Assembly (NCBI GenBank): GCA_964017155.1 | Contig: OZ024857.1 | Location: 38,295,641 to 38,359,640, forward strand | DNA from: Oasisia sp. SBJ-2009 | Taxonomy: Eukaryota > Annelida > Polychaeta > Sabellida > Siboglinidae | Reading direction: 5' to 3' | DNA length: 64,000 nucleotides | Shown here: piece after piece, positions 32,201-41,200 of the stretch | Layout: each line of letters starts with the position of its first letter | How positions within the stretch are numbered: position 1 is the stretch's first letter | Notes under the pieces: model-generated | The model's input: the letters and a program-made list of their open reading frames with translations, nothing else | What the model was told of the DNA's origin: nothing | Databases searched by the model: none | Made by a program: the position numbers and the translations under genes

Positions 32201-35200
32201 ACAGTTACTTAATATTGTTTGTACCGTGTACTGAAAGTGATGCTAAATTAATTCAAAACTAAATTCTCAATCGGTTTATAAACTTATCAGTGTAGTAATT
32301 GCAAATTAATTCACTCTGGTCATTTAAATTCAATTGATGTACCCAGGTTGCTTAGCAGATTCCATCAACCGGTCAACAAAATGGCTGCCGGAACACATGG
32401 TTTTCATTGTATAGTTTATTGCAATTCTGGTTTTAGAAGATTATCTTGAACAAATGGATGCATCAGTTATAATACCTAGGTGAAATAACACGACAGATGT
32501 GATGAGGCAGGACTCTGTGCTTACAGATCTGCGTAGTTTCATTCTGTTCTCGCGGAGGACAGACATACGGAGGGTGTCGTTTGACACCCCGGAGAAGGTG
32601 GACGTGGTCATCCCGCTGGTCGGCCTGCAGAGTGCAGTGGATCTGGACTGGGACGACACGACGGACTACATCTACTGGGGCGACGTCAGCACCAACACCA
32701 TCAGCCGGGCACGCTGGGACGGCACGGGGCAGGAGGTAGGGAAGACAGGGAGGGAGGGATGGCACGGGGCAGGAGGTAGGGAAGACAGGGAGGGAGGGAT
32801 GGCACGGGGCAGGAGGTAGGGAAGACAGGGAGGGAGGGATGGCACGGGGCAGGAGGTAGGGAAGACAGGGAGGGAGGGATGGCACGGGGCAGGAGGTAGG
32901 GAAGACAGGGAGGGAGGGATGGCACGGGGCAGGAGGTAGGGAAGACAGGGAGGGAGAGATGTCACAGGGCAGGAGGTAGGGAAGACAGGGAGGGAGGGAT
33001 GGCACAGGGCAGGAGGTAGGGAAGACAGGGAGGGAGAGATGGCACAGGGCAGGAGGTAGGGAAGACAGGGAGGGAGGGATGGCACGGGGCAGGAGGTAGG
33101 GAAGATAGGGAGGGAGGGATGGCACGGGGCAGGAGGTAGGGAAGACAGGGAGGGAGAGATGGCACAGGGCAGGAGGTAGGGAGGACAGGGAGGGAGGGAT
33201 GGCACGGGGCAGGAGGTAGGGAAGACAGGGAGGGAGAGATGGCACAGGGCAGGAGGTAGGGAGGACAGGGAGGGAGGGATGGCACGGGGCAGGAGGTAGG
33301 GAGGACAGGGAGGGAGGGATGGCACAGGGCAGGAGGTAGGGAAGACAGGGAGGGAGGGATGGCACAGGGCAGGAGGTAGGGAGGACAGGGAGGGAGGGAT
33401 GGCACAGGGAAGTAGGTAGGGAGGACAGGGAGGGAGGGATGGCACAGGGCAGGAGGTAGGGAGGACAGGGAGGGAGGGATGGCACAGGGCAGGAGGTAGG
33501 GAGGACAGGGAGGGAGGGATGGCACAGGGCAGGAGGTAGGGAGGACAGGGAGGGAGGGATGGTACAGGGCAGGAGGTAGGGAGGACAGGGAGGGAGGGAT
33601 GGCACGGGGCAGGAGGTAGGGAGGACAGGGAGGGAGGGATGGCATGGGGCAGGAGGTAGGGAAGACAGGGAGGGAGGGATGGCACGGGGCAGGAGGTAGG
33701 GAGGACAGGGAGGGAGGGATGGCACAGGGCAGGAGGTAGGGAAGACAGGGAGGGAGGGATGGCACAGGGCAGGAGGTAGGGAAGACAGGGAGGGAGGGAT
33801 GGCACAGGGCAGGAGGTAGGGAGGACAGGGAGGGAGGGATGGCACAGGGCAGGAGGTAGGGAAGACAGGGAGGGAGGGATGGCACAGGGCAGGAGGTAGG
33901 GAAGACAGGGAGGGAGAGATGGCACAGGGCAGGAGGTAGGGAAGACAGGGAGGGAGGGATGGCACGGGGCAGGAGGTAGGGAAGACAGGGAGGGAGAGAT
34001 GGCACAGGGCAGGAGGTAGGGAGGACAGGGAGGGAGGGATGGCACGGGGCAGGAGGTAGGGAGGACAGGGAGGGAGGGATGGCACGGGGAAGGAGGTAGG
34101 GAGGACAGGGAGGGAGGGATGGCACAGGGCAGGAGGTAGGGAAGACAGGGATGGAGGGATGCCACGGGGCAGGAGGGAGGGAAGACAGGGAGGGAGGAAT
34201 GGCACGGGGCAGGAGGTAGGGTAGACAGGGAGGGAGGAATGGCACGGGGCAGGAGGTAGGGAAGACAGGGATGGAGGAATGGCACGGGGCAGGAGGTAGG
34301 GAAGACAGGGATGGAGGGATGGCATGGGGCAGGAGGTAGGGTAGACAGGGAGGGAGGGATGGCATGGGGCAGGAGGTAGGGAAGACAGGGAGGGAGGGAT
34401 GCCACGGGGCAGGAGGTAGGGAAGACAGGGATGGAGGGATGGCACAGGGCAGGAGGTAGGGAAGACAGGGATGGAGGGATGGCACAGGGCAGGAGGTAGG
34501 GAAGACAGGGATGGAGGGATGGCATGGGGCAGGAGGTAGGGAAGACAGGGAGGGAGGGATGCCACGGGGCAGGAGGTAGGGAAGTAAGGGAGGGAGGAAT
34601 GGCACGGGGCAGGAGGTAGGGAAGACAGGGATGGAGGGATGGCACAGGGCAGGAGGTAGGGAAGACAGGGATGGAGGGATGGCATGGGGCAGGAGGTAGG
34701 GAAGACAGGGAGGGAGGGATGGCACGGGGCAGGAGGTAGGGTAGACAGGGAGGGAGGGATGCCACGGGGCAGGAGGTAGGGAAGTAAGGGAGGGAGGAAT
34801 GGCACGGGGCAGGAGGTAGGGTAGACAGGGAGGGAGGGATGGCATGGGGCAGGAGGGAGGGAAGACAGGGAGGGAGGGATGGCACAGGGCAGGAGGTAGG
34901 GAGGACAGGGAGGGAGGGATGGCACGGGGCAGGAGGGAGGGAAGACAGGGAGGGAGGGATGGCACAGGTCAGGAGGTAGGGAGGACAGGGAGGGAGGGAT
35001 GGCACGGGGCAGGAGGTAGGGAAGTAAGGGAGGGAGGGATGGCACGGGGCAGGAGGTAGGGTAGACAGGGAGGGAGGGATGGCATGGGGCAGGAGGGAGG
35101 GAAGACAGGGAGGGAGGGATGGCACAGGGCAGGAGGTAGGGAGGACAGGGAGGGAGGGATGGCACGGGGCAGGAGGGAGGGAAGACAGGGAGGGAGGGAT

Positions 35201-38200: not shown

Positions 38201-41200
38201 GGCACAGGGCAGGAGGTAGGGAGGACAGGGAGGGAGGGATGGCACAGGGCAGGAGGTAGGGCAGACAGGGAGGGAGGGATGGCACAGGGCAGGAGGTAGG
38301 GCAGACAGGGAGGGAGGGATGGCACGGGGCAGGAGGTAGGGAAGACAGGGAGGGAGGGATGGCATGGGGCAGGAGGTAGGGAAGACAGGGAGGGAGGGAT
38401 GGCACAGGGCAGGAGGTAGGGAAGACAGGGAGGGAGGGATGGCATGGGGCAGGAGGGTGGGAACAGCCACCTTAAACATTTGTGCTGTTTTTATGAGGGT
38501 TCACCGTTTAAAGTATATTTTGACACATGTTTGAGTTACAAGTGTCATGGGTGCCAGCTCTTCTGCCCAGAATTGGCTGAGCAGTAATTTGTAATGGGAA
38601 GTCTGTTGTCTAAAAGGGTATTGCGGTTACCTCTGGTCGCCTCAGCAGTATTGCCAGTCAAATTTGTTTTGAAACGGGATGTTTTGAACATGTTGCTGGT
38701 GGAATCTTTCAAATTGTGAACTTTCTTCGGAACTTAATTAAAATAACTATATCCGGTAAATACAAATTGGATGCAGTAAACCTTCAACAAGCATGTAGTC
38801 ATAACAACGTAATGTTAAATGAACAAACCCAAAAACCTAGTAGCTGGCACCCGCGCTTTAAGTTTTACTGTGATGTGACTGTCATAAGAAATGTTCTTAA
38901 TGTTCTTAATTTCAATTGGTCATTTTAGGTCATAATATCCAACCTGGACAGTCCAGCTGGGCTTGCCCTGGATTGGGTTAGTAAGAAGATATACTGGACG
39001 GACGCAGGCACTGACCAGATAGAAGTAGCGAATCTGAATGGCTCAGAAAGAACGATCCTTATTTGGGAGGACATGGAGAGACCTAGAGACATCATTGTCA
39101 ACCCAGTCAGTGGGTGAGTGTCATCATTGTCAACCCAGTCAGTGGATGAGTGTCACCATTGTCAACCCAGGCAGTGGGTGGGTGTCATCATTGTCAACCC
39201 AGTTAGTGGGTGAGTGTCATCATTGTCAACCCAGGCGGTGGGTGGGTGTCATCATTGTCAACCCAGTCAGTGGGTGAGTGTCATCATTGTCAACCAAGTC
39301 AGTGGGTGAGTGTCACCATTGTCAACCCAGTCAGTGGGTGAGTGTCACCATTGTCAACCCAGTCAGTGGATGAGTGTCACCATTGTCAACCCAGTCAGTG
39401 GGTGAGTGTCACCATTGTCAACCCAGTCAGTGGGTGAGTGTCATCATTGTCAACCCAGTCAGTTGGTGAGTGTCATCATTGTCAACCCAGTCAGTGGGTG
39501 AGTGTCACCATTGTCAACCCAATCAGTGGGTGAATGTCATGATTGTCAACCCAGTCAGTGGGTGAGTGTCATCATTGTCAACCCAGTCAGTGGGTGAGTG
39601 TCATCATTGTCAACCCAGTCAGTGGGTGAGTGCTGTCATTGTCAACCCAATCAGTGGGTGAGTGTCACCATTGTCAACCCAGTTAGTGGGTGAGTGTCAT
39701 CAGTGTCAACCCAGTCGGTGGGTGGGTGTTATCATTGTCAACCCAGTTAGTGGGTGAGTGTCATCATTGTCAACCTGGTGAGTGGGTGAGTGCCATCATT
39801 GTCAACTCAGTCATTGGGTGAGTGTCATCATTGTCAACCCAATCAGTGGGTGAGTGTCATCATTGTCAACCCAGTCAGTGGGTGAGTGTCATCATTGTTA
39901 ACCCAGTCAGTGGGTGAGTGTCATCGTTGTCAACACAATGAGAGGGTGAGTGTCATCATTGTCAACCCAGTGAATGGATGAGATCATTGTCATCCTAGTC
40001 AGTGAATGTCATCATTCTCAAACCAATGCGTGGGTGGGTGAGTGAGTGAGTCAGTGAGTGAGACAGTGAGTGAGTCAGTGAGTGAGTGAGTCAGTGAGTG
40101 TCATTGACATCAATGTAATGACCATGTTGTGTGACTGTCCACCCGTGTGTCCAGCCACATGTTCTGGACCGACTGGGGTCGCCACCCCCGGATAGAGCGG
40201 GCGGGCCTGGACGGGTCTGACCGCCAGATCCTGCACCAACACAATGTCACCTGGCCCAATGGACTCGTGGTGGACCATGAACACCAGCGCCTCTACTGGG
40301 TCGACGGGGGCACACACATGATTGAGTTCTCTGATCTGGACGGTCGCAACAGGCAGGTCCGTGTCTTCCTGCTGTATTTTAGTTTTTTTTTTTAAATGTA
40401 ATGTATATGAATTTTATTGTAATGTTTTTCAATTTACTATGACGTATTTTACATTTGTAGGACCTCTGAGCAAGTATTTTACTGTTTGTAAAGGTAGAAT
40501 CTCAAAATGAAGATCAGTGACATTACATGAAACAGTGTTTGTGTGTGTGTTTATGTGTGTACATTTGTATGCATGTTTGTGTGTGTGTTAGTTTGTTTGT
40601 GTGTATATGTGCATGTGTGTGTGCATGTGTGTGTGTTTGTATGTGGTGTAGTTTTTTCATGTGTTTGTATGTGTATGAGTGGATGTGGTGTGTGTTTGTG
40701 TGTGTGTGTCCATGTGTAATACAGTGGTATATATATATATATATATATATATATATATATATATATATATATATATATATATATACATATATATATGTAT
40801 ATATATATATATATATATAATCGAGGATAAAGCTCTCCAGGACTTTCATTTTCTATCCCCTTCCAGCATTGCTTCCATTTTAATACATCTGCCAGTGTCT
40901 GTGGTGTCTGTGATGTCACATGTAGTGACCAGTGTCTGTTGTGTCTGTGATGTCACATGTAGTGACCAGTGTCTGTTGTGTCTGTGATGTCACATGTAGT
41001 GACCAGTGTCTGTTGTGTCTGTGATGTCACATGTAGTGACTAGTGTCTGTGATGTCACATGTAGTGACCAGTGTCTGTTGTGTCTGTGATGTCACATGTA
41101 GTGACCAGTGTCTGTGATGTCACATGTAGTGACCAGTGTCTGTTGTGTCTGTGATGTCACATGTAGTGACCAGTGTCTGTTGTGTCTGTGATGTCACATG

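Follow-up and report, generated by a model that had tools for sequence, protein, structure and literature searches.

A 40-bp tandem array carrying copies of the exon 15 splice donor in LRP4 of the annelid Oasisia

The LRP4 locus and its exon 15 array

We analyzed a 64,000-nt stretch of the genome of the siboglinid annelid Oasisia sp. SBJ-2009 (contig OZ024857.1, positions 38,295,641 to 38,359,640 of the forward strand; hereafter the window). It carries an LRP4 gene in which a 40-bp tandem array lies across the end of one coding exon. The gene model occupies 11062..55331 on the plus strand and has 31 coding exons and 30 introns. It was built by splice-site inspection with human LRP4 as the guide; the end of its last exon is provisional, as are any signal-peptide, membrane-spanning and cytoplasmic exons. 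Once joined, the 31 exons form a stop-free frame with 58% identity to human LRP4 over 1653 columns, and the first 916 residues contain LDL-receptor class A and class B repeats and EGF-like domains (Pfam). The longest exon in the model is 274 nt, and all 30 introns are longer than 250 nt.

The array sits at the donor of exon 15 (32527..32735, plus strand, 209 nt). An earlier note, made from the sequence alone, had assigned this exon to LRP4, and the assignment stands: the exon belongs to the 31-exon model, and the 93-residue translation of exons 15 and 16 matches the PDB LRP4 chain 8s9p_B at 1.1e-114. Its number is less firm. It is the 15th of the mapped exons, but because no signal-peptide exon was identified, the true number may be higher.

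Tandem Repeats Finder called a repeat at 32716-38463 with a period of 40, 143.7 copies, 94% matches and 0% indels. In our unit map the array runs over 32721..38463 (plus strand), with 143 full units to 38440 followed by a partial unit, and it keeps its register from 32721 without an indel. Every one of the 143 units has at least 36 of its 40 bases like the consensus, and the flanks are unique on both sides. Bases 1-15 of the unit are exonic and equal the final 15 nt of exon 15, and bases 16-40 correspond to the 25 nt with which the intron begins; the gene model fixes the boundary between them. The donor GT is kept in 122 of the 143 units, and the exact nonamer GAG/GTAGGG in 121. Copy number, register, unit anatomy and donor retention are therefore as the earlier note had described them.

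All 21 losses of the GT are one identical T-to-G change, and none is found among the first 36 units. The 143 units comprise 36 distinct types in a structured order. Units 1-5, exon copy included, are identical, and nine of the 143 equal the exon copy. The array almost fills intron 15 (32736..38928, plus strand), which is 6193 nt long and would be 513 nt without the 142 extra units; exon 16 (38929..39113, plus strand) follows. The GC skew of the array is 0.70, and it contains 113 G-quadruplex (G4)-type motifs and 679 G-runs.

Among the 120 listed of 3249 database matches, the highest identities were to Owenia and Lineus (64% each); lancelet LRP4 reached 61%, and vertebrates did not exceed 59%. 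A quick tree of 26 sequences placed the window LRP4 within lophotrochozoans (Shimodaira–Hasegawa-like approximate likelihood ratio test, SH-aLRT, 99), grouped with Owenia and two nemerteans (SH-aLRT 96, no bootstrap). A vertebrate (fish) or lancelet affinity of the gene was rejected on the protein search and the tree.

Reading frame after the array donors

Within the 31-exon model, the first donor is the only one of the 122 GT donors that leaves the frame open. Splicing from a donor one unit later leads to a TAG at 38979 in exon 16, and from two units later to a TAA at 38933 in the same exon; from three or more units later, a TAG is met within the array itself. The earlier note had predicted each of these outcomes, and they hold in the gene model. 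Exon 15 would measure 249 nt with one extra unit and 289 nt with two, against 274 nt for the longest LRP4 exon.

Other arrays in LRP4

Two more donors of the gene are straddled by repeats, which the earlier note had not mentioned. The exon 16 array (39090..40004, plus strand) has a 32-bp unit with 24 exonic bases; 25 of the 28 units examined have the GT, and five of the 28, that copy counted, equal the exon copy. Here too the frame stays open from the first donor only. Intron 16 would be 177 nt without the extra units. At exon 13, a 43-bp segment with 37 exonic bases is present twice (30939..31025, plus strand). The two copies agree at 42 of 43 positions and give two donors, the second of which leads to a stop soon after. 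This duplication is perhaps the first step of a boundary-spanning array.

We searched all 30 introns for the last 15 nt of the exon before and the first 15 nt of the exon after, allowing 2 mismatches and using segments 30 nt deeper in the exons as controls. Exon-end copies were found in the following intron at three of 30 donors: exon 13 (one copy), exon 15 (142) and exon 16 (25). No exon-start copy (15 nt, at most 2 mismatches) was found in the preceding intron at any of 30 acceptors, and the control segments gave none on either the donor side (0/30) or the acceptor side (0/30). A chance match of exon end to array was rejected on this contrast of three in 30 donors with 0/30 control segments of the same exons.

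Four other arrays lie close to splice sites, all on the plus strand. Those at the donors of exon 3 (19113..20242) and exon 18 (42038..42272) begin at intron bases +4 and +9, respectively, and include no exon bases. At acceptors, one array ends 3 nt before the first base of exon 18 (40892..41836) and a short one ends on the first base of exon 22 (46623..46683), which suggests that acceptor-side repeats occur without exon sequence.

For placement statistics, the 64 Tandem Repeats Finder rows (overlaps included) were merged by hand into 38 arrays, 20 of which lie in the gene with a period of at least 10 (two overlapping). Four of the 20 begin within 25 nt of a donor, where 0.72 would be expected (P 0.005). 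For ends within 25 nt of an acceptor the count is two, against 0.73 expected (P 0.17). Three begin inside the last 45 nt of an exon (expected 0.63, P 0.023). Three donor-straddling arrays against zero acceptor-straddling ones gives P 0.046 under random placement. These figures are modest and come from one gene, and they do not prove the contrast between donors and acceptors.

The whole window is rich in tandem repeats, as its 64 rows, overlapping ones included, indicate; among them are an AC repeat of 491 bp (51740-52230) and a GTCC repeat of 420 bp (7343-7762). An open frame at 45055-45351 has a weak match to GIY-YIG endonucleases (E 6.5e-4; 20.4 bits, below the Pfam cut-off of 22.6). We take it to be, perhaps, the end of a Penelope-like element.

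Descent of the array

Tandem repeats spanning exon–intron boundaries were named "mirages" in lancelet Adh3 (PMC3087553). We think it probable that the exon 15 array is a tolerated minisatellite of this type, which arose by tandem duplication across the donor and whose first donor is picked by exon definition.

The copies bear on the direction of descent. Where the exon copy has ACG, the units have ACG (54), ACA (70), ATG (18) or ACT (one), so that the two forms expected from CpG decay make up 88 of the 89 changes. The array has an observed/expected CpG ratio of 0.17; the ratio is 0.50 for the window outside the array and 0.75 for the exons. The unit codons, G-T-G-Q-E, agree with 118, 40, 27, 87 and 89 of the 120 listed relatives, respectively, and the aligned stretch of Lineus LRP4 is exactly DGTGQEV. 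Because CpG decay is seen in the copies, and because the exon end aligns with the LRP4 of distant animals, the exon is the most likely source of the array. The same two lines of evidence lend good support to the earlier note's proposal that the array was born by tandem duplication across the boundary.

Judging from the unit anatomy, the founding event would have been a tandem duplication of a 40-bp segment made up of the 15 nt at the end of exon 15 and 25 nt of intron. Slippage or unequal exchange in whole units would then have carried it to 143 copies, and point changes, chiefly CpG decay, diversified the units. Events of this sort also took place at exons 16 and 13, where the copies are present in the sequence. 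In the exon 15 array, a unit type tends to reappear a few units further on (recurrence of 0.11-0.24 at lags 1-10, compared with a shuffled mean of 0.07 at lag 1), and whole blocks of five to seven units are repeated, a pattern expected from whole-unit slippage or unequal exchange. Units are identical at the exon edge and the 3' edge is degenerate, which suggests that the copies adjoining the exon are the newest; exchange between the array and the exon itself could also have occurred. Expansion through G4 structures or R-loops was rejected as a general cause: the exon 16 array is free of G4-type motifs, and such structures could thus bear on array size only.

Choice of the first donor

The transcript would carry 122 GT donors. 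On a donor scoring matrix, 121 of them score alike, and the exon 15 donor ranks 16th among the 30 of the gene. With equal scores, the nonamer cannot decide between them. Exon 15 lies between introns of 363 nt (intron 14) and 6193 nt (intron 15), and between long introns it would be recognized across the exon, so that the donor nearest the upstream acceptor would win. The remaining copies would be removed with the intron and would be tolerated for that reason.

Human data on donors of equal strength, as described in PMC9225289, follow a proximity rule in which the downstream donor is preferred with short introns and the upstream donor with long ones; the limit between the two is quoted there as 200-250 nt. 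Introns 14 and 15 are both above this limit, so the upstream donor, which is also the sole one to give full protein, is predicted. Choice of the first donor by position would fit this tendency of equal-strength donors. Splicing can be enhanced by G-runs of the downstream intron, according to PMC10334793, and 142 of the 143 units have four to six G-runs. The body of exon 15 also holds four, and G-runs were set aside as the cause of the choice; they, or signals in the exon body, may add to it.

The growth of the arrays may also have shifted exon 16 toward exon definition, introns 15 and 16 being 513 and 177 nt without their extra units. Arrays on the acceptor side should be less tolerable than those on the donor side, because duplication of an acceptor places a further AG upstream, which is the first to be exposed, whereas a donor-side array can be spliced out whole.

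This single gene offers a series of 2, 28 and 143 units, and the run of 121 identical donors that follows one exon makes an unusually clean natural experiment on splice-site choice. Exon-centered and intron-centered proximity predict the use of opposite ends of the 5.7-kb array, a difference that should be visible in ordinary cDNA of the species.

Alternative explanations

Several points weigh against a tolerated array with a first donor chosen by position. The upstream preference is partial: overall, it holds in 60% of the events with donors of equal strength. The rule classically drawn from in-vitro work favors the downstream donor (PMC9225289). A partial preference alone would not guard against 121 rival donors. 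Human IFI6 uses two downstream donors (PMC4526556). Nor is the prediction special to exon 15, since all 30 introns of the gene exceed 250 nt. With regard to the origin, wide conservation within the five unit codons is limited to the first G, Q and E and does not extend to T or the second G. Perfect microhomology at the founding junction is absent in all three arrays (exons 15, 16 and 13). The nearest case at exon 15 pairs GGGAC of the exon with GGGAT from the end of the unit, and the matching junction bases number 6/10 at exon 15, 4/10 at exon 16 and 3/10 at exon 13. Microhomology at the founding duplication was dropped on this account.

The later donors might instead poison the message, with some transcripts using donors 2 to about 5, meeting an early stop and being lost to decay, such that the number of units near the exon sets the dose of LRP4. 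All 121 later GT donors do lead to a premature stop, their nonamers are nearly all the same as the first, the first 36 units are free of GT loss, and IFI6 provides a case of downstream donors in use (PMC4526556). We nevertheless regard regulation of this kind as unlikely. A single T-to-G variant, spread by copying, accounts for the GT loss, and its absence near the exon may reflect chance or recent units. The unlike units at three exons of the same gene suggest a habit of mutation more than a single regulatory design. A broader proposal can be made, in which donor-anchored duplication is recurrent and genome-wide in this lophotrochozoan and lengthens short introns into long, exon-defined ones, and in which individuals differ in how many units lie near the exon, a number that tunes LRP4 output by leaking transcripts into decay. 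We offer it tentatively, as a speculation that is much more likely wrong than right. An assembly artefact, with a real array much shorter or longer, seems quite improbable given 36 unit types in structured order, 143 units free of indels and unique sequence on both flanks, even though long near-identical arrays are hard to assemble and one lancelet mirage is described as mis-assembled in a draft genome (PMC3087553).

The two other possibilities fare worse. If the AG/GT of each unit were both acceptor and donor, the intron could be removed stepwise, as with polyubiquitin; 122 of 143 units read AGGAG/GT, and tandem dual-specific AGGT sites are described in UBC (PMC10809524). What is missing is any acceptor-like pyrimidine tract. 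The 20 nt before any of the 1018 AGs in the array hold at most six pyrimidines, against at least nine (median 13) for the 30 real acceptors. Recursive or dual-specific splicing is accordingly disfavored, and we consider it very unlikely. It is hardly credible, finally, that the array was born inside the intron and matches the exon by chance, or was copied into the exon. The identity of the first five units with the exon copy makes exchange between exon and array possible, but the exon end aligns with the LRP4 of distant animals, CpG decay runs from exon to array, and none of 60 control segments has a match.

Comparison with known systems

Besides Adh3, lancelet mirages are described at two globin genes (BflGb6 and BflGb9), with further lancelet loci cited, and they are reported not to disturb regular splicing (PMC3087553). 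As described there, the Branchiostoma repeats share with those of LRP4 minisatellite-like copies that span a boundary, many intact AG/GT sites and concerted evolution. Each unit at exon 15 combines 15 exonic with 25 intronic bases from a genuine boundary, splice signals persist in many units here and at exon 16 (122/143 and 25/28), and the short-lag recurrence and repeated blocks point to concerted turnover. A lancelet host is a non-essential trait of mirages, and the tree places this gene among lophotrochozoans. The LRP4 case also differs in its 143 units and in affecting three donors of the same gene; in BflGb6 it is an acceptor boundary that is duplicated, in 3 or 6 units.

Tandem AG/GT copies are likewise common to LRP4, to intron gain by tandem genomic duplication (PMC3443670) and to the dual-specific sites of UBC (PMC10809524), in so far as these are described there. 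The LRP4 array, unlike these, implies no new intron and has no acceptor-like sequence upstream of its AGs. The repeat unit of human IFI6 (6-16, G1P3) is short and in frame. Its minisatellite, like that of LRP4, provides several donors at an exon end, and two downstream units serve as donors to give three mRNAs (PMC4526556, citing Turri 1995); in LRP4, by contrast, the later donors would give early stops. In human segmental duplications, 27 intron modifications are attributed to minisatellites at exon–intron boundaries, which alter gene structure as in LRP4; their units average 30 bp in four copies, and they often alter splicing (PMC2812944). The intron minisatellites of an earthworm metallothionein (PMC12783039) and of C. 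elegans (PMC4039745) were rejected as parallels, since the accessible portions of these papers describe no boundary-spanning units.

A search of the open-licence literature, in which annelids and nemerteans were only narrowly targeted, yielded no boundary-spanning minisatellite from a lophotrochozoan, which is not proof of absence. The earlier note knew of no described case of this scale. The kind has been described, in lancelets, in human IFI6 and in human segmental duplications; in the literature covered, the figure of 143 copies appears new. The LRP4 arrays indicate that minisatellites across exon–intron boundaries also occur outside the chordates. The kind of repeat is thus known, and its clade, its copy number and the presence of three such arrays in one gene appear to be new.

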